Shown here piece after piece: positions 4,089 to 64,000 of a stretch of 64,000 nucleotides of DNA; the stretch's first letter is position 1; every line of letters starts with the position of its first letter. Made by a program: the position numbers and the translations under genes. The notes beneath the pieces are model-generated. The model worked only from the letters and a program-made list of their open reading frames with translations, was not told where the DNA came from and searched no databases. The stretch is from Fibrobacter sp. Lineage in GTDB: Bacteria; Fibrobacterota; Fibrobacteria; Fibrobacterales; Fibrobacteraceae. The stretch spans positions 434,001 to 498,000 of the forward strand of contig JAKSIC010000001.1 in assembly GCA_024399015.1 (NCBI GenBank). The letters run 5' to 3'.

Positions 4089-5018
4089 TTATTTTCTAAA
4101 AAAATCAAAATCGATGTTGACTCGAATGCCCTGCTTCTTGACATCGGCCACCAAGTTGCTGGCATCAAGGATTATTTTATCCACTTCCTTGAGGAACTTG
4201 CTGTCGTCGGCAAGGATCAAGGCTGCCGTATTATCTTGTTTGGAAAGGTCATCAAACAAGTTCTTACTCTGGTTCTTTATACCATCCAACTGTTTCAAAA
4301 GGACTTCTGCACGGGAAATCAACTTCTGGGCATCATCAACCCTAAGTTTTCCCTGGTCCACAGCTTCATTCAACATAGGTTTCACCTTATCCAAGGCTCC
4401 ACCCAACTGATCAAACAACTGGTTAGCTTCGCCAATCCAGGACTTGATATCAGCCTTGCCCACCTTAATCAGGCGATCACCCTTATTGATGATTCGCTTG
4501 ATGCGCTTTCCGGTGGAACCGACTGTTACAGAATCTGCAAAAGCATACAAAGTATCAAGAACTTCGTCCAAATCGTCCAAAGCAGCAAGAAGACTCTTTA
4601 CCACGCCGGAAGTACCTTCGTCGTAATGACCCTTCAAGGTATCACCGTCATTGACCATGATCGGACTATCGCCGGTCAGAACGCACATTTCGCGTTCGCC
4701 CATCAAGCCGGAGTTGATCAGGCGGAATTCAGAGTTCACCGGGATCCTGGTATCTGCCAAAACTCGGGCAGTCACGTAGACGGCGTCTTCAGTCAATTCC
4801 ACCTTGGTGATTTCGCCCTTGGAAATACCGCGGACCTCCACACGGTTGCCCGGAGAAAGGGTACCGATGGCATCGTAGGCCACCACAAAGGAATATCTGC
4901 TGTGGTAGGGGCTAGCCGGATGAAGAGTGTACCAGGCCAAAATGCAGGACACCGCGATAATGGTAAACACTATCGAGGGAATCACGTTTTCTTTGACAAG
5001 CCTGACGAATCTATTCAT
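4089..5018 (-). CDS. MlaD/MCE family lipid-transport protein
   Basis: 309 residues: an N-terminal membrane anchor (about residues 12-32), then a single MCE domain (about 38-115, with SPGNRVEVRGISKGEI and GLMGEREM) and a long helical tail that would extend into the periplasm. MCE proteins carry phospholipids between the membranes with an ABC permease/ATPase pair, which is not present in this window. It overlaps the end of hprK by 8 bp, so the two are probably cotranscribed and translationally coupled. Confidence 0.85.
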   Translation of the reverse strand: MNRFVRLVKENVIPSIVFTIIAVSCILAWYTLHPASPYHSRYSFVVAYDAIGTLSPGNRVEVRGISKGEITKVELTEDAVYVTARVLADTRIPVNSEFRLINSGLMGEREMCVLTGDSPIMVNDGDTLKGHYDEGTSGVVKSLLAALDDLDEVLDTLYAFADSVTVGSTGKRIKRIINKGDRLIKVGKADIKSWIGEANQLFDQLGGALDKVKPMLNEAVDQGKLRVDDAQKLISRAEVLLKQLDGIKNQSKNLFDDLSKQDNTAALILADDSKFLKEVDKIILDASNLVADVKKQGIRVNIDFDFFRK

Positions 5019-9295: not shown

Positions 9296-10734
9296 TGTTT
9301 TTCCTCCACAGGGGACTCGTTCTTGTATTCGCGACGACGTCCTCTTCTAATGACCGGAACTTCGTCCTTCTTAATATCGCTTTTTTCTTTCGGTTGTGTC
9401 AAAGAATCTTTTTGTGCCGCAGCCTTATTGCGGTTTTCCTTTTCCATATCCACATATCGGCCACTTGCAGCGGAGCTTCTGCCCAGCAAACGGAGGGATT
9501 TCACCGCATTTTTCTGGGCATCGAAAGTAATATGGATGGTATCACCGGTGGCTTCGTTCTTTCCAGAAACGGAACGATCGTTCTTGACATAAAAATAAGT
9601 GCTCTGAGCCTTACCCGATACAACGGCGTGATCCATCTTGCCTCTCTTGAAGAACATGTCAAGACGGTCCCCATCCATCAAGTTGCGGTAATCCTTCAGG
9701 TCAGTTTCGTAGAAAGTTCCGTGAGCATTCAAGTTCACATACAGATGCTCGATCTTGTTGTTTTCAAACTGGGCAAACAGTGTATCACCAGTAGCTTCCG
9801 TGACGCGGCCCGGGGTACGTCCCTTGGCCTCTTCCTGCTGAACACCATGAGCATTGCGAATCACCAATGCGGACTTCAAGGAATTTCCTGTAGAATCCAA
9901 AACCAAGAAAATGGAATCACCTGTCAGATGGTAATTCTTCAAGTCGCAGGTGGGATGCCCCTTCATGGAAACCCAGTTGTTCTTTCGATCAAAGTAACCC
10001 GTATCGCAAGTGACCACCATGTCCTTCTGAGTCATCTTCACATGGTCAAAAGCTTCGGCAAAATCATCTTTCTTATTGTAGTTCATCTTGTCGGCAAAAA
10101 TGGTCACATCCTTCTGCGTCAAGGTCACATGGTCGTAGGCCTCGGCAAGATCAGTTTCCCTGTTGTACTTCATGTGGTCCGCAGAAATTGTGACATCCTG
10201 CTGCATGATCACCACCTTGTCGTGAGCCTGGGCAATACCATCCTTCTTATTATAGATGATGTGTTCAGCCACCACAGAAAGGGTGTCCTCGGTTCCGTCC
10301 TTCTTCTTTTCAAACTGCCACAGGTGCGGTTCCTTGGGCATGTCCAGAATTTCATCTTCGCGGTTGTAGACAAGATGTTCGCCTTTCAGCAAATAGGTGT
10401 GGGCGGAGTCGCCAGCATTTACCTTACCTGTAGCAATAGCGATGTTTTCCTTTTTCTGGTAAATACCCTTGTCGGCGTTCACGTAACCGTTGGGATGCGT
10501 AAACTTGAAACCGCCATCGCATTGAACCACTTCGTTGTCCTTGTTCCACACGGCGCGCTGGGTGCGGAACTGAACGCTATCGTGAACAAAGTGTACGCGA
10601 CCATGCAGAATCAAGGTACCGCGTTTGCGGGCAACGGCGAGGCTGTCCGCATGTTTCATGATCAGCGGAGACGTCTGGGAAAATGCGATTGCCGGAAGCA
10701 ACAGCACCAGCAGGAAAATCAGGGAACGACGCAT
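9292..10734 (-). CDS. OstA/LptA-like periplasmic protein
   Basis: 480 residues with a signal peptide (about 1-20, cut near AIAFS-QT). Then come repeated beta-jellyroll type segments in which short strands with [26 protein letters not shown] and NKKDDFAEA recur, typical of the OstA/LptA/LptD-N fold. It is more than twice the length of E. coli LptA, like the OstA-like proteins of Bacteroidetes and Fibrobacteres. It probably forms part of the LPS bridge. Its start overlaps the lptC-like stop by 1 bp. Confidence 0.85.
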
Positions 10735-57257: not shown

Positions 57258-58328
57258 CTAGATTATCAGCATTTCCTTCCGGATAGTCATGACATCAGTG
57301 CGAAGCAGGCTCGCCGCTTTGGACATGGTAATCAGTTCGTTTTCAAGAGCCTTATATACCAGGGACTCAAAACGATGTGAGGTTTCTGCAGGAGAATCGG
57401 ATCTTTCAACGAACGACTTGTATTCTGGACTTTGGTTTTTCCTTATGCAATAGCCCCTATGAAGCGCTGCAGATACAATTCCACATTCCTTGGCCTTGTA
57501 CATAATGGCATCGCAGGAAATACCGAATCGCATCTGAATCGGTCGAAGTTCCTTAACGGAGACCTTCTTCCTGCAATTGCCAAGGATACGCCTAAGTTCA
57601 GTTTCAGGAAGCAGCATTTCGTTTGCAAACAGGTTACAAAGGGATTCCTGCTCCTTGTCAGAAATATGGTCTTCAAAACTCAGCAGCAAATGGCCAAGTT
57701 CGTGCAACGCGGTAAAACGCTTTCGTTCGTACAAAAAGTTTTTTCCAAGGACAATCACCGGGATAACATCGTTGACCTTGGTACTTACGCCATCGAATCC
57801 GTCGGGAGCATCAATCTCCACAACTTTTACGCCGTGTTCTTCAAGCATTTCTATCACATTGACAATGCCGTCCTTGCCCAGGCACCAACGTTCACGAAGC
57901 TTGACTGCGGCGGCCTTGACCTGTTCTGCAGAGGCGACAGGAACGGAGGCAAAATCAACGTCGATGTTTACGTCATTGCAGATTTCTTCGATATTGACAT
58001 AGCGCTCCACGAAATCCGCAATGTTCATTTTCACGCTTTCAATTTGCTTGGCCCCTAGGTTCTGCTTTTTTCTAAAGCGCATGGATTCCAGTTTGAAAGT
58101 GAACGGGCGGAAAAAATAATCGGGAGTTTGATCCAACGCGTCTGCCAAGGAAATCAGAACTTCGCTGTCAGGGTCCATTTTCCCAGATTCGTACTTGGAA
58201 ATTGCCATTTTGGAGACCTTCGGTTCCATTCTTTCACAAAGGTCGTCCATGGAGAACCCCTTCATAAGGCGGGCGCTCTTCAATCGCAAAGCAAAAGTGG
58301 AAACTTCGGACATATTCGCAAACTCCAT
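57258..58328 (-). CDS. XRE-family HTH and ImmA/IrrE metallopeptidase regulator
   Basis: 356 residues. XRE HTH (about 10-65: RLKSARLMKGFSMDDLCERM then KVSKMAISKYESGK) and an ImmA/IrrE domain with zinc motif HELGH (near 205) and a second acidic site (LFANEMLLPE). Such proteins control mobile elements or toxin genes. An autoregulatory operator lies directly upstream of the start. Confidence 0.92.
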   Translation of the reverse strand: MEFANMSEVSTFALRLKSARLMKGFSMDDLCERMEPKVSKMAISKYESGKMDPDSEVLISLADALDQTPDYFFRPFTFKLESMRFRKKQNLGAKQIESVKMNIADFVERYVNIEEICNDVNIDVDFASVPVASAEQVKAAAVKLRERWCLGKDGIVNVIEMLEEHGVKVVEIDAPDGFDGVSTKVNDVIPVIVLGKNFLYERKRFTALHELGHLLLSFEDHISDKEQESLCNLFANEMLLPETELRRILGNCRKKVSVKELRPIQMRFGISCDAIMYKAKECGIVSAALHRGYCIRKNQSPEYKSFVERSDSPAETSHRFESLVYKALENELITMSKAASLLRTDVMTIRKEMLII

Positions 58329-58330
58329 TG

Positions 58331-58371
58331 TTGTTTACAAATATACAATATATTATACAAAATGTAAACAA
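58331..58371. promoter_or_regulatory. operator of the XRE-ImmA gene
   Basis: Perfect 9-bp arms TTGTTTACA / TGTAAACAA separated by 23 AT-rich bases that contain TATAC / GTATA-like steps and a likely -10. It begins two bases before the start codon. Confidence 0.7.
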
Positions 58372-58411
58372 TGAAGTTTTTACTTTTTGTGAGATGCGGA
58401 CTTTACAAATC

Positions 58412-58588
58412 CTATTCACTAAAATCGAACGGTATTGTCACCGTGGTGTTTCCGCTTTTAACCTTATTTACGCACTTGTTAGGGTTGCGTTTTGCACCTT
58501 GCAAAAAGTCATTCAGTTCATAGTAAACCGGCTCTGCCGCCATCGACAGGGTCACCAAGCCAAATAACGCAAGAATACAGTACTTCAT
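58412..58588 (-). CDS. 58-residue exported protein
   Basis: From ATG 58588: signal peptide (MKYCILALFGLVTLSMAA, cut before EPVYY) and a short mature part with one Cys and a TVTIPFDFSE end. Function unknown. Confidence 0.6.
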   Translation of the reverse strand: MKYCILALFGLVTLSMAAEPVYYELNDFLQGAKRNPNKCVNKVKSGNTTVTIPFDFSE

Positions 58589-58610
58589 ACCTATTAAAAT
58601 AGTTTTGAAT

Positions 58611-58630
58611 TTTGACACTTTAGTGTCAAA
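58611..58630. promoter_or_regulatory. palindrome TTTGACACT / AGTGTCAAA
   Basis: Perfect 9-bp arms; related palindrome at 40045-40064. It lies between the exported-protein gene and the terminator of the transposase-like gene. Confidence 0.55.
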
Positions 58631-58650
58631 AAAAAGGACCCCGTGGGTCC
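58628..58650 (-). terminator. terminator of the PDDEXK transposase-like gene
   Basis: GGACCC / GGGTCC followed on the minus strand by eight T, about 30 bases past the stop at 58679. Confidence 0.85.
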
Positions 58651-58678
58651 CTTGTGTCGCGGAGATTGTCCGCAAAAG

Positions 58679-59719
58679 TTACTTGGCAGCCTTAAGGCGT
58701 TCTATTTCCGCCCGGAGAGCAGCCAATTCAGCAGCCTGCTTGTCCAATTCAGCAGCCTGCACGGCGATGGTATTCTCGAGGCGTTCGCGTTCCATCCTGG
58801 CGTTGTACTGGATGCTGGCGATAGTGCATTCGCGTTCCTCTTTGGTAATCATGTCAGACTCCTTCTCGGTTTTCCTGATGCGGTCCAGCGCCTCGGCAAC
58901 GGCGTCGTTCTTGATCTTAATTTCCGCCTTGCTTGTGAAAGCGTGCTTCAGAACATAGCTCCACTGGTCTTCAACAGATTCCAGTTCATCGGCCTGCTTC
59001 TTGAAGTTCGGCAGCTGAAGGAAAATATACTTTAAGCGATTGCTGATTGGCAACGGTTTTCCGTTTTTCAAGTCATTTTCGCTGTAGAGCATCCAACTGT
59101 CCCAAGGTTCTATCGAACCGGTGGGTACCGCGAAGTTGCAGACCCAGATGCTCACGGTGTCGGGCAGTTCGTAGGCTCGCTGGCGGCGCTCCTCCTTTTC
59201 CTTGCTGGTGAGCTCGGGCGGAGTGCGGGTCGCAACCATCTTCTTGTCGTCATCGGCACGGGTCGCATCCAGTTCGGCCTTGGCCTTGAGCATAAGGGCC
59301 GAACCGTAGGTCAGCACACGGTCCTCGAAAAAGTTGTGCTGCAAATTCTGCACTTCCACATCGATATTCCTGCCGTCGTTTGTCTGGGCACGGATATCAA
59401 AACACCAGGTCTTCTTCTCGGCACCCTCAGCGTCGGAGGTCTGGTACGAGATGCGCTTGGTCTTGAAGCTGAGCTTCGTGATTTCGCGCTCCTTGTCGAG
59501 GCGCATAACACCATTCAGAAAGTTTGTCAACGAGTTCGTGCTGGCCAGCAGCTTCTTGAAGCCGCTATCGCTCAAGGGGTTCTCGTATACTCCTCCGGCA
59601 ACGGCATTGCCATCGGTGGGGGCTTCGATGTCTACGCTTGTGAGATCAAAATCTGCGTTTACAACGTCAAGATCTGTATTCGCCACTTTAATGTCGGCAT
59701 TCGTGTTTTTCTTGTTCAC
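58679..59719 (-). CDS. PD-(D/E)XK nuclease family transposase-like protein
   Basis: About 346 residues from GTG 59719 (frame open to 59806). Core: SDSGFKKLLASTNSLTNFLN, then TWCFDIRAQTNDGRNIDVEV (D ... E-V-Q), and HNFFEDRVLTYGSALM, the PDDEXK_2 family pattern. C-terminal coiled coil (AAELDKQAAELAALRAEIER). The N-terminus holds a beta-solenoid-like run of short DxxN repeats (NADIKVANTDLDVVNADFDL), unusual for the family. Confidence 0.82.
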   Translation of the reverse strand: MNKKNTNADIKVANTDLDVVNADFDLTSVDIEAPTDGNAVAGGVYENPLSDSGFKKLLASTNSLTNFLNGVMRLDKEREITKLSFKTKRISYQTSDAEGAEKKTWCFDIRAQTNDGRNIDVEVQNLQHNFFEDRVLTYGSALMLKAKAELDATRADDDKKMVATRTPPELTSKEKEERRQRAYELPDTVSIWVCNFAVPTGSIEPWDSWMLYSENDLKNGKPLPISNRLKYIFLQLPNFKKQADELESVEDQWSYVLKHAFTSKAEIKIKNDAVAEALDRIRKTEKESDMITKEERECTIASIQYNARMERERLENTIAVQAAELDKQAAELAALRAEIERLKAAK

Positions 59720-59806
59720 GTGTAACTTTTTCCGGGTGTTGCGCACACCTTTGCGGAAAGGCGAAATCGCCTCCGTCTCTATACACGCTTTTTTGCCGCA
59801 GTTCAA

Positions 59807-60302
59807 TCCGGAAATTTTGAAAAACGATTGTAAAAATTTTCAATTGTACGTTTTTGCGGTAGGGATGGAGGGGGCCAAGGCCCCAAGATTCCACCTCTAG
59901 TCCTTCTTCGTCATAGCTTCACTTGTTCAATAGTTTCAGGCTCAATAGTATTTGCAAATCTACATTGTGAGATCCGCCCCAGCCAAATTTGCCTTCGAGC
60001 CTGTTGAGACGATAAGAAGGAACGATATTGATTTGATTGTCGCGCTTTTCCTTTGTACTTTCAGAAGGCACATCTCTTTTTATAAAGGACATCGAAAGTT
60101 TATGAATGCAGTTGAATTTCATGATGTTACCTCACTCTATTCATTTATCGGGAATTTCATGAAATTTGTCAGAAAAAAACATCTGGGGAGATAATTTTTG
60201 AAAACAGGGCTTTGTGTTTTTTCAATTGTCATCTTCTGACATCGGGCTCCTACTATATTTAATAAGATAAAAATTGAAGGCTATCTTCGTAAGGGGCATT
60301 AT
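59807..60302. other. gap with GNAT fragment and weak frames
   Basis: 59888-59920 (minus strand) reads YDEEGLEVES, the same as the end of the GNAT gene at 56.3 kb, so it is a remnant. Short overlapping frames at 59919-60194 on both strands have no ribosome site and are not called. 60183-60213 repeats GGGGAGATAATTTTTGAAAA as at 62380. Confidence 0.5.
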
Positions 60303-60581
60303 ATGTTCAGCAAGGTAAACGGGCAGTTTGGCAATACTGAACATTGTTACGCCATTGCAGGCCTTTCGCCTGCTGAAGCAGAGACTCTCTCCACGCGATT
60401 TGGCCAGCAGTCTTCCATCAATTGCAAATTAGACCCGGAACTCATGCAGAATGCAATCAACTTGATCGATGCAAAGTATAAATGCATGGACCAGGCCAAG
60501 CAAGCGCATTTCAACAAAAGCCTAACCGAAGGCATGACCGGAAGGGGCCGCTACCAGGAAAGAATCATGGCGGGGCTATAA
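60303..60581 (+). CDS. 92-residue protein of unknown function
   Basis: AAGGGG lies ahead of the ATG. The sequence has AIAGLSPAEAETLSTRFGQQ and a helical C-terminal half. No family recognised. It precedes the 43-bp tandem array by about 40 bases. Confidence 0.6.
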   Translation: MFSKVNGQFGNTEHCYAIAGLSPAEAETLSTRFGQQSSINCKLDPELMQNAINLIDAKYKCMDQAKQAHFNKSLTEGMTGRGRYQERIMAGL

Positions 60582-60623
60582 TTAAGACAGAAGGGATGCT
60601 TTCAAAAGGCACTCGCACCATCA

Positions 60624-61265
60624 TGCGCAAAAGATTTCGTTTGGCAAAATTTCGTTGCCGTATTTTGCGCATAGGATTGCCCGTAGGTAAAAAGCCGATG
60701 GTACTTAATACACATAGAATCATCCACCATAAAAAAGTTGTCGCAGGATAATGCACGTAAAATATACCGTAGGTAAAATTCTGTCGCTACATTTTGCACG
60801 TAAGATACACCGCAGGTAAAATTCTGTCGCTACATTTTGCACGTAAGATACACCGCAGGTAAAATTCTGTCGCTACATTTTGCACGTAAGATACACCGTA
60901 GATGAAAATCGGTTGCCGTATATTGCACGTAAAAAGCCCCATAGGAAAAAATTTCCCTAGAAAAATGCGCAAATGTTACGCCATGCGCCAAAGACGGACG
61001 CTATATAATGCGCGTAGAATTGCCCGCTGACATAAGGCGGGCGATATATATTGCGTGCATTATGGACCAACTGCAAAAATAGGCGGTACAGATTACGCGC
61101 AGAATCATCCATGGGTAAAAAATTGTCGCAGGATAATGCGCACAAGATAGCCCAGGCACCAAAAGATGCCCCATGATTTTGCACACAAAATTCACCGCCG
61201 AAAAATTACCGAGCATTTTCTTACGCGCATGATGGCCCACCCTAAAACAAATGAATGACAACAAA
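60624..61265. repeat. degenerate tandem array, exact 43-bp period, about 15 units
   Basis: The anchor TGCACGTA/TGCGCGTA starts at 60624, 60666, 60709, 60752, 60795, 60838, 60881, 60924, 60966, 61009, 61052, about 61095, 61137, 61180 and 61223, so steps are 42-43 bases throughout. Within a unit, CCG..GGTAAAA and TTGTCGC are further conserved blocks. The three central units (60752-60880) are nearly identical; the others are diverged but hold the register. Since 43 is not a multiple of three and stops occur, it is not a protein repeat. Confidence 0.9.
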
Positions 61266-61292
61266 AATACAGTGTCATACAATGGTCAAAAC

Positions 61293-61360
61293 GTGACACA
61301 AATGTGACAAAACTAGCATAAACTTTTACACAATCGTGACGTTCTGTGACCATCCGTGAC
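61293..61360. promoter_or_regulatory. helically phased GTGAC boxes
   Basis: GTGAC at 61293, 61304, 61336, 61346 and 61356: spacings 11, 32, 10 and 10, close to whole turns of DNA. They lie between the tandem array and the DUF6261 gene. Confidence 0.6.
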
Positions 61361-61460
61361 ATTCAAACTTCGTAGTTTAAGAGCAAGGCCGACGCGGAGC
61401 ACCCAAGCGGTGAACACGAAGGCCGAAACATCAAACAACTCTCAAAACGAGGTTACAAAT

Positions 61461-62291
61461 ATGAAAAACATGACTATTATCAACTTCCCCTCTCTCCGCA
61501 ACGACGAGTTCCTTGGCCTTCACACCGAAGGCGTAAAATACGCCAAGGCGGTTACCGACACGGAAATCCAGCAGGCCGCTACCGACTACGAAACAGCGGT
61601 GCAGAACCTGGGCGACTTCCTGAAAGCCAGCATCACCGAAACAGCGGCGAGCCTGGCGAAGAACCTGGACGAGGAACGCAACAAGATCTATGTGGCATGC
61701 CGCAACGTGGCCAAGGCTGCAGCCCGCATCCCCGACGCAAGCGCTGCCGAAACAGGAGCCTTGATCTGCAAGATTTTCAGCGAAAGCCCCTCCCCCCTCA
61801 ATAACAACCAGGTGCAATCCACAGGTATCATCCTGAACATCATCCAGGGCATCAAGGATATCGAAGCCGAAAAGCTGGAGGCCTGCGGATTCAAGGAATG
61901 GCTCGAAAGGCTGGAAAGCGTAAACAACAAGTTCGTCGAGGCCGACATGGCCAGGTTCTCGGAAAGCGGTTCCAGAGAACTGGAACACTGCAAGAAGCTG
62001 CGTGCCGCCTGTGTCGAGGCGTACAATGTCATGGTCGGCGCCGCAACATTCAAGGCTGCAGCCGGAAGCGAATCCTGCAAGGTATTCCTCGAAAGCATGG
62101 ACGCGGCCGTTGTCGCCAAGAAGCAGCAGGTGAAAATCCGCCGAGAACGAAAGAACAACGAACAGGGAGAAAACGGAAAACCGGCGAACAATGCGACCGA
62201 CAACGCGGCGGTCAATACCGAGAACGCGGCGGACAACGCTGCCCCCACCACGGACAATGCTTCCACGGTGGGTGTAGAAAATGCAGCATGA
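61461..62291 (+). CDS. DUF6261 family protein
   Basis: 276 residues from ATG 61461 (GAGG upstream; frame open to 61356). Opening MTIINFPSLRNDEFLGLHTE and the helical body fit DUF6261, a Bacteroidetes/Fibrobacteres family of unknown function. The C-terminal 50 residues are a low-complexity Asn/Ala/Thr tail. The leader contains AAGGCCGACGCGGAGC ... GAAGGCCG. A terminator follows. Confidence 0.7.
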   Translation: MKNMTIINFPSLRNDEFLGLHTEGVKYAKAVTDTEIQQAATDYETAVQNLGDFLKASITETAASLAKNLDEERNKIYVACRNVAKAAARIPDASAAETGALICKIFSESPSPLNNNQVQSTGIILNIIQGIKDIEAEKLEACGFKEWLERLESVNNKFVEADMARFSESGSRELEHCKKLRAACVEAYNVMVGAATFKAAAGSESCKVFLESMDAAVVAKKQQVKIRRERKNNEQGENGKPANNATDNAAVNTENAADNAAPTTDNASTVGVENAA

Positions 62292-62330
62292 TCTACACTA
62301 TACACATAAGGAAATAGGAGAAAATAAAAG

Positions 62331-62363
62331 TCCCGGCATCGCAATGATGTCGGGATGTTTTTT
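62331..62363 (+). terminator. terminator of the DUF6261 gene
   Basis: TCCCGGCATC / GATGTCGGGA (one wobble) with five-base loop followed by a T-run. Confidence 0.88.
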
Positions 62364-62408
62364 ATGCCAGAAAGCCTTCTGGGGAGATAATTTTTGAAAA
62401 TAGGGCTT

Positions 62409-62453
62409 TTTTACGGGAAAAACCATTTTTTTAGATACCCATTTCCCGTAATT
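62409..62453. repeat. 45-bp inverted-repeat unit (copy 3)
   Basis: Arms TTTACGGGAAAAA and ATTTCCCGTAAT around an AT-rich loop; same family as 12029-12073. Confidence 0.75.
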
Positions 62454-62608
62454 TATTAGGCTATTTGTAATAAATTGGTGGTTTGGGCTCATTTTTCCAT
62501 CGCAGCCTGGCCTAAAAGTGGGCCAAGACAATGAAAATGACTATGAAAATGGGCTGACCGGGGCTGTTTTCCCTTTTCAATGAGGTTTTTGGCATAGTTT
62601 GTCTGTAA

Positions 62609-62654
62609 AATTACGGGAAAAACTAGCCAAATCGAAGCCTTCTTCCCATAATTT
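62609..62654. repeat. 45-bp inverted-repeat unit (copy 4)
   Basis: Arms ATTACGGGAAAAA and TTCTTCCCATAAT; right arm has one change. Copies 3 and 4 are about 200 bases apart, as are copies 1 and 2. Confidence 0.7.
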
Positions 62655-62717
62655 TGGCACTTTTCCCAAAAAGATCTCCCGACGCGTTCCAAACCAGCGA
62701 TTTTCTGGGCGCGTTTT

Positions 62718-64000
62718 CTAGGCAAGCGACTTGCCGATTTCGTTGGCCTGCTTTTCCAGGAACTCGTCGATGGAAGTGGCCACCACGTCGGAACCGAAGT
62801 AGTTGATGTTGCGCTTGGCAAGTTCGTTGCAGGAGATAATCTGTGCCTGCTTGATCTTCAGAGCCTTGGGCAGGTGGGCAAAGAATTCCGTGTAGAACGG
62901 GTGTTCCACATTGATGTAGATGGTGCACACATTGTTGACCGTTTCGGCATAGTGCATTTCACCGCTCTTTCCGCCCTTGTATTCGCAGAATCCGCCCAGC
63001 CACTTGTTCTTGCGTTCGCGGGTGGGGTTCGGGTTTGCCTGGGGGCCACGGTGTTCGTGCTCCTTCCTGGGCTCGTTGGACTTGTTGTTTTCGCCATGGC
63101 GGTTTGCAGAGAGCAGCAGGTTGCTGTTCTGCTTGACGGTGGCGTCGTCGTAGGCCTTGGTGGTTTCGGGATCGTCCGGCTTGCCCATTTCCATTTCCTT
63201 GGTGCCGCGGTGGGCAACAAGCTTAATGGTAGGGCCAAGTTCATTCACCAGCTTGTCGCGAAGTTCCTGGTCCACCAATTCCTTGTCGCGGTCGCTGAGC
63301 ATCTTGGTGAAGCTGGAACCGAACAGGTAGTCGCAAGTGCCATCCACAAAGATTTCGGCACGGAAGCCGTTCAAACGGTTATGCTTGTGTTCCTCGAGGC
63401 CAAGCCATACGCCCTGACCCACAAGGCGGTGCTGGCGGTAGATATAAAGGCCCTGGGTACGCTGGTTACGGGCGCGGGCACCGTTGCGGTTTTCGGTAAG
63501 GTCGTCGGGAATCCAGTAGCACTTATACTTGATGGTGTGACCGTCCACATCGATTACGCCATCGTTCAGGAGTTCGCATTCGCCCATGCTGTTGGGCATG
63601 GGGTCCACAGGCACAACTTCGGCACCATCCACCTTGATGGTCACATTCTTGGAGAAGATGTACTTGTTAAAGATAAGGCCAAGGTCCGCCTTGATGCGGC
63701 CACAGAAATTGTCGTGGTTCTTGTTGACCAGCTTGTCCAACTTGGAAATGCGCACAAGGGTTCCGCTGACGGTCTGCTGGCCATCCACGGTGTTGCCGGC
63801 GAACATGGAAAGGTCCACATAGTCCGGCAAGTTTGCGATATCGAATTCCTGGAAATCCACCTGGATTTCGCTGCCGGTTTCGATGGCGTCGGTCAGGTCA
63901 ATCGATGCATAGGAAACGGTATCGGAGTCGGCACGCTTGGTGAACACTTCGAACATGCGGCCAATGCTGAAAGATGCGGTCTTGAGGCCGGCACCATACA
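62718..64000 (-). CDS. GHKL (Hsp90/MORC-like) ATPase, 5' part missing
   Basis: The frame enters from the right edge with YGAGLKTASFSIGRMF, the ATP-lid glycine motif (G-x-G-x-K-T-A) of GHKL ATPases. It continues for about 427 codons through a transducer-like domain (GLYIYRQHRLVGQGVWLGLE and HNRLNGFRAEIF) to the stop. The Asn and DxGxG motifs lie outside the window. Large stand-alone ATPases of this type occur beside restriction-like genes, but no partner is visible here. Confidence 0.85.
   Translation of the reverse strand, partial: YGAGLKTASFSIGRMFEVFTKRADSDTVSYASIDLTDAIETGSEIQVDFQEFDIANLPDYVDLSMFAGNTVDGQQTVSGTLVRISKLDKLVNKNHDNFCGRIKADLGLIFNKYIFSKNVTIKVDGAEVVPVDPMPNSMGECELLNDGVIDVDGHTIKYKCYWIPDDLTENRNGARARNQRTQGLYIYRQHRLVGQGVWLGLEEHKHNRLNGFRAEIFVDGTCDYLFGSSFTKMLSDRDKELVDQELRDKLVNELGPTIKLVAHRGTKEMEMGKPDDPETTKAYDDATVKQNSNLLLSANRHGENNKSNEPRKEHEHRGPQANPNPTRERKNKWLGGFCEYKGGKSGEMHYAETVNNVCTIYINVEHPFYTEFFAHLPKALKIKQAQIISCNELAKRNINYFGSDVVATSIDEFLEKQANEIGKSLA

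Follow-up and report, generated by a model that had tools for sequence, protein, structure and literature searches.

Genes of the DUF6261 family are usually accompanied, on either side of the gene, by tandem DNA arrays whose units keep a 41-43 bp step and dyad symmetry while their sequence turns over. Such arrays, variable in letters and fixed in step, point to an undescribed gene-plus-DNA-array system. In searchable open-access papers, where DUF6261 is mentioned only in an unrelated context, we did not find this association described, and the DUF6261-linked DNA array itself seems new to the literature. An uncharacterised family of Fibrobacterota and of oral and gut Bacteroidota is now tied to a DNA element.

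A degenerate array precedes the DUF6261 gene of the window

The window, i.e. the whole 64,000-nt stretch of Fibrobacter DNA that was analysed, carries a degenerate tandem array at 60605-61245 (+ strand), delimited by autocorrelation, a unit walk and a pooled-column motif. The walk gives 15 units of 42-43 bp, separated by ten steps of 43 and four steps of 42. The original prediction of a degenerate array in a register of about 43 bp was thus borne out; the register is real, but the start of the array lies about 20 bp ahead of the predicted one and its step is 42 at four places. Autocorrelation at lag 43, proposed as a check of that prediction, reached 0.539 over 60624-61265, far above the values of 1000 dinucleotide shuffles (0.260 ± 0.018, with a maximum of 0.317 at this lag and a highest value of 0.374 at any lag up to 300). 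Lag 43 was still the top lag, at 0.448, when pairs within the homogenised core (60752-60898, + strand) were masked, and the array is the strongest periodicity in the whole window. Tandem Repeats Finder detects only this core, as 3.4 copies with 97% matches. Two units in the centre of the array are identical and a third is nearly so, in agreement with the recent local amplification that had been proposed there. The units follow one another head to tail with no unique spacers between them, which sets them apart from a CRISPR array, and Rfam 15 covariance models gave no match at E ≤ 1 over positions 58000-64000. The window also holds another tandem repeat, at 10022-10204, with a period of 87 bp, 2.1 copies and 77% matches.

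Open reading frame positions and Pfam confirmed the flanks that had been assigned to the array. A 92-residue ORF without Pfam match over cut-off precedes it (60303-60581), and a DUF6261 (PF19775) gene follows it on the + strand (61461-62291), encoding a protein of 276 aa that is all-helical with a disordered Ala-rich tail according to Pfam and a structure model. The placement between two genes was right but missed the association with DUF6261: the array belongs to the adjoining DUF6261 gene and is not just set between two genes. Several TGACA/GTGACA boxes, identified by sequence comparison, lie in a block between array and gene (61250-61365, + strand) that is conserved among Fibrobacter DUF6261 paralogues despite their differing arrays. 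They are followed on the same strand by TCGTAGTTTA, a promoter-like element probably of the -10 type that is conserved across paralogues (61370-61379), and by a possible, weakly supported leader hairpin GGCC...GGCC (61387-61424), which is common to Fibrobacter DUF6261 paralogues with differing arrays and missing from the closest orthologue (L053). At the Fibrobacter loci, a 200-bp promoter-like block stands between array and gene. An intrinsic terminator with a 12-pair stem and a T-run follows the DUF6261 gene (62330-62356, + strand), and none was found on the gene strand between array and gene (61245-61461).

Around this locus, a 412-aa ORF (62718-63956, - strand) matches the MZA anti-phage ATPase MzaB only in part and at a level well below the cut-off (NCBIfam, E = 1.4e-9). 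The window further contains a gene for an XRE/M78 regulator (57258-58328) and one of Rpn type (58679-59806), and the region with these three genes looks like a variable island. The source genome has 82 Fib_succ_major domain matches, in agreement with its assignment to Fibrobacter.

Arrays with the same step go with DUF6261 in two phyla

Ten DUF6261 matches were found in the source genome, most of them with a 42- or 43-bp array directly upstream and each array with a unit sequence of its own. In the 464 kb of this genome that were scanned, no further 41-43-bp arrays turned up. Related strains were checked for the array of the window and carry it, as the original prediction implied. In order to survey the family, 101 DUF6261 loci of Fibrobacterota and Bacteroidota were scanned blindly over 1.2 kb upstream (lags 20-109, 250-bp windows, cut-off 0.5), with runs of N masked in the counts, which affects loci L094, L121 and L153. 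Strong periodicity (>0.5) was present upstream of 68 of the 101 loci, with a best lag of 41-43 in 45 of them, 82-86 in 22 and 61 in one; a period of 41-43 or its double was thus seen at 67 of the 68 strongly periodic loci versus none of 108 control tiles. When any period from 36 to 48 was allowed, 67 of the 68 arrays fell at 41 (25 arrays), 42 (25) or 43 (17). The same values were obtained from 582 unit steps (162 of 41, 248 of 42, 162 of 43 and 10 of 40 or 44) and from 47 non-redundant unit families (periods of 41 in 19, 42 in 18 and 43 in 10); the surveyed loci overlap in ancestry and the counts are not all independent.

The array lies upstream of the gene in 62 of 67 cases and downstream in five. 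Clear downstream arrays occur at L097, G097_C90 and G097_C681, and none was called upstream of these genes (for G097_C681 within an upstream sequence of only 239 bp). Since some arrays are downstream, the array is unlikely to be a promoter element only. In Prevotella, Segatella, Hoylesella and Phocaeicola the arrays likewise stand ahead of the DUF6261 gene, and at several Prevotella loci 28-48 bp separate the end of the array from the ATG. A clear array is lacking at about one third of the DUF6261 loci, including those of one orthologous group (G059, G056, G010 and others): an array beside DUF6261 is common, not universal. Two DUF6261 copies interrupted by stop codons (G000_C27 and G080_C16) also have no clear array.

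Seven unit types were searched through their own genome. The hits were DUF6261 arrays, two contig ends with one such array and one orphan array, the rest being at chance level. We therefore rejected the idea that the units are sites dispersed elsewhere in the genome, as matches outside arrays were essentially at chance. The orphan array consists of about three 42-bp units resembling those of G000_C10 (L163, 2960-3086; contig C16 of G000, about 10,450-10,590); it is flanked by the terminator of an aspartate-semialdehyde dehydrogenase-like gene and that of an aminopeptidase-like gene, and there is no DUF6261 gene in its vicinity. Three contigs of G000 end inside one DUF6261 array type (L164 1-220, contig C36; L165 1-120, contig C7; the end of L050, contig C3), so that this array is probably present at two loci of the source genome. 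Short-read assemblies probably undercount DUF6261-array modules.

At one Prevotella nigrescens locus (L099, 4812-5765), the annotated start of the DUF6261 protein WP_004367630.1 falls within a 41-bp array, and its annotated N terminus is therefore probably too long. Immediately behind a GxxExxY (PDDEXK_3) gene, the same locus contains a 120-bp unit that bears inverted repeats and is present in 3.3 near-identical copies (4162-4557), annotated as a hypothetical protein; the GxxExxY gene and these repeats are possibly another gene-plus-array pair.

The sequence of the units turns over within a fixed geometry

Unit sequence is locus-specific and evolves faster than the gene. Units resemble each other only where the proteins share more than about 60% identity, and at lower identity the likeness drops to near chance. 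When orthologous loci were compared between two related genomes, identity was 92-99% for the genes, 91-99% for the leaders and 75-93% for the arrays, with a random level of 63% for the aligner. One pair of loci within a single genome (G055_C55 and G055_C25) has DUF6261 genes that are 98.9% identical, encoding proteins that differ only by N167K and Q201R, with leaders that are 98% identical and matching DNA directly before the arrays. The arrays themselves show 62% identity, which is the random level, and have periods of 43 and 42. Flanks that are alike around arrays that are unrelated but in register indicate a block replacement of the array in which the step was retained. As the two proteins differ at two residues only, DUF6261 would not be the sole reader of the sequence, unless what it recognises is shape or a short core. 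Such a core, CAAATWATG, seen by eye at the same offset from the last unit that both arrays have in common, may be shared by the two.

A step of 41-43 bp corresponds to four turns of 10.25-10.75 bp. In arrays of unrelated sequence from two phyla, the spacing is conserved at a 41-43 bp step centred on four turns of B-DNA, and these results support the earlier claim that the spacing itself is selected. A geometry retained while the sequence turns over is unusual in bacteria.

The units carry dyad symmetry

Dyad symmetry was detected in 30 of the 47 non-redundant unit families at P<0.05 and in 24 at P<0.01. The same procedure applied to control symmetries on the 47 families gave 4 for mirror and 6 for half-shift symmetry; the column-permutation nulls ignore shared ancestry within an array, and the control symmetries still stay near chance. 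In related Prevotella-type loci, both arms of the dyad change together (TTGCCGA/TCGGCAA, TTTGCTGA/TCAGCAAA). Mismatches between arms are G:T in 83 cases and A:C in 90, and the lack of a G:T excess gives no sign of RNA pairing.

For the array of the window, a first dyad test based on the consensus was negative because the homogenised core hid the motif, which was revealed by pooling the drifted units. The 15 units of the window pooled with 17 orthologue units give AAA-N4-G-N-CGC-N3-AT-N2-TRCRCRYA-N2-AT-N3-CC, with columns very unequal in conservation (chi2 248, 42 df) and free columns between the boxes. Dyads are centred on column 23.5 and on the A-tract 21.5 bp away (P=0.003), i.e. two helical turns apart. 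The element TGCGCGTA, which each unit had been proposed to present on the same DNA face, is conserved but is not the sole conserved part, since the A-tract two turns off, the AT boxes and the CC are conserved too; it is merely the version, at this locus, of a motif that varies from locus to locus. The protein-bound array of the original prediction fits these data, as the conserved columns form a dyad motif of the kind expected of protein sites; the data gave no indication of the partition, origin or silencing roles that had been suggested for it. The bend calculated with a wedge model gave mixed results against column-permuted arrays (mean z 0.73, sd 1.7, window -1.1), and intrinsic curvature as a selected property was discarded as not general.

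DUF6261 proteins are helical and patchily distributed

The protein encoded in the window matches DUF6261 (PF19775) with 67 bits and E=2.3e-18, over the gathering cut-off of 27 bits. This is its sole match in Pfam, with none to the StbA/TraK family, and the defence-system models of PADLOC gave no match. Two confident models (pLDDT 85 and 92) show an all-helical protein of about 240 residues, with a disordered tail in the member from the window. Fold searches with these models returned only generic helical bundles with Z up to 9.7, below the level that indicates a relationship for bundles, and a profile search of PDB sequences only weak scattered matches. Most members have a neutral or acidic N-terminal part (first 190 residues) and no known DNA-binding fold; many members, including the protein of the window, have a basic region around the last helix. 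DUF6261 does not look like a classical DNA-binding protein.

Among 168 genomes of Fibrobacterota, 38 carry the family; in the class of Phocaeicola faecalis it was detected in 7 of the 296 genomes sampled. The number of matches per genome ranges from none to eleven. No neighbour gene is common to the DUF6261 loci, and recurrence of Rpn/PDDEXK_2 genes is limited to a few loci of Fibrobacter. In P. nigrescens, the DUF6261 gene has topB/helicase genes on one side and mobC/mobB on the other, surroundings that look like a conjugative element.

Discussion

We propose, with a confidence that falls just short of even, that the array and DUF6261 form a module in which dyad sites for a dimeric DNA-binding protein recur every four turns and DUF6261 is the likeliest binder. 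The gene and the array would be the two parts of one module, a protein gene and its DNA platform. The platform would be a row of dyad sites with a four-turn repeat and dyads every two turns, placing all bound molecules on one DNA face, from which an ordered nucleoprotein assembly could arise. Selection would keep the step and the dyad, and the recognised letters would drift or be replaced. From the constant adjacency of gene and array, we infer that a protein binds the array as DNA and that this protein is DUF6261, either by itself or as an adaptor for another protein; it would act on the array next to its gene, by analogy with single-protein partition or auto-regulatory systems that act on repeats beside their own gene. 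Its purpose could be self-regulation, anchoring, maintenance of a horizontally moving cassette, or restraint of the protein by its array. The neutral or acidic members, the third of loci without clear array and a slightly better folding of the gene strand speak against this model, as does the G055 pair.

This last point bears on the main rival, namely that the array is transcribed, as the original prediction had also allowed, and acts as RNA, a string of hairpins of about 42 nt beside the DUF6261 mRNA that would be bound by protein or processed, in a layout like that of type III toxin-antitoxin systems. The repeats indeed stand in tandem directly upstream of the gene and on its strand, and their unit length is near that of type III antitoxin repeats. 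Arrays outfold column-permuted ones on both strands, with z of -3.0 on the gene strand versus -2.5 on the other (difference -0.50 ± 0.19), and transcription may cross the Prevotella arrays that end so close to the ATG. However, the dyad stems have no wobble excess, the window dyad is too weak for a stable hairpin (four pairs at its centre), no terminator separates array and gene in the window, a promoter-like block parts them in Fibrobacter, and Rfam gave no match. The Bacteroidota promoter motif TAnnTTTG gave no decision on the side of the array where transcription starts. We favour DNA sites over RNA, which we regard as unlikely. An array read by its shape, as cruciforms or single-strand hairpins, would explain free letters with kept palindromes; dyads retained under sequence replacement and near-identical proteins beside unrelated arrays agree with it. 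It is nevertheless quite improbable, as the window dyads are only weak with free columns between them, conserved columns within an array mean that sequence matters locally, and hairpins need no strict four-turn step.

The predominance of upstream arrays, followed in Fibrobacter by a conserved promoter-like block, would suit a row of operators for a host regulator of DUF6261, with DUF6261 playing no role in binding. We judge this very unlikely given the downstream arrays and the dozens of unrelated unit sequences, which one regulator could not read. A homogenised centre with decayed edges is typical of slippage and unequal exchange, and the array changes faster than the gene, as would a neutral minisatellite without function. 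Such an origin is hardly credible for a step of 41-43 bp that is found with unrelated sequences next to a single gene family in both phyla but is absent from the controls, and for units with conserved columns and dyads. Phage-derived or decoy sequence was also rejected, as exact searches of viral contigs with three unit patterns of 21, 21 and 23 bases gave no match, which leaves diverged targets possible.

The function of DUF6261 can be approached via whatever occupies the array, and the period, not the sequence, can be used as a search signature of a functional DNA element.

Comparison with known systems

Iterons and centromere-like plasmid sites are repeats in helical register bound by an adjacently encoded protein; each protein has its own fixed motif, and the sites function in replication or partition. 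DUF6261 arrays, in contrast, keep geometry and not sequence, and up to eleven DUF6261 matches occur per chromosome. BrickBuilt of Porphyromonas gingivalis consists of repeats of 23 nt contained in a transposable element that has a leader and a tail (PMC4596501). It shares with our arrays the intergenic tandem repeats in a Bacteroidota genome but differs in repeat length, and a link to DUF6261 is not reported (PMC4596501); judged by their period of 41-43 against that description, the DUF6261 arrays are not MITEs of this type.

In type III toxin-antitoxin systems (ToxIN, CptIN, TenpIN), a terminator stands between the repeats and the gene for the toxin, an endoribonuclease, and the repeats function at the RNA level (PMC5086642). 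DUF6261 loci resemble them by tandem repeats directly upstream of one gene and by their patchy spread. They differ by the absence of a terminator (at the window locus), the all-helical protein, the arrays that also occur downstream and the near-identical proteins with unrelated arrays. DUF6261 has no match of ToxN/CptN/TenpN type in Pfam, NCBIfam or PADLOC, and its models contain helices only; the fold searches leave that family possible.

StbA/stbDRs of plasmid R388 is a single-protein stability system in which StbA binds repeats and acts in cis on DNA; the stbDRs are two sets of five 9-bp repeats with two-nucleotide spacing in the promoter region (PMC3098194). Here again one gene adjoins a row of repeats, the row being present at DUF6261 loci and its binding putative. 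StbA/stbDRs differs by its one fixed sequence, its plasmid location and its other protein family, and neither a 42-bp step nor turnover is reported for it (PMC3098194). By analogy, the DUF6261 array is comparable to StbA/stbDRs in its putative working, and is not a member of that family. The DUF6261 module may instead represent a separate class of gene-and-DNA-array module, which we consider nearly as likely as its contrary, in which geometry (four turns per unit, dyads every two) is fixed by selection and sequence is free, repeatedly rewritten even between near-identical copies of one genome. It would then be either a bacterial counterpart of fast-evolving centromere-like DNA or an array whose content must differ between copies, as in incompatibility or self/non-self distinction.
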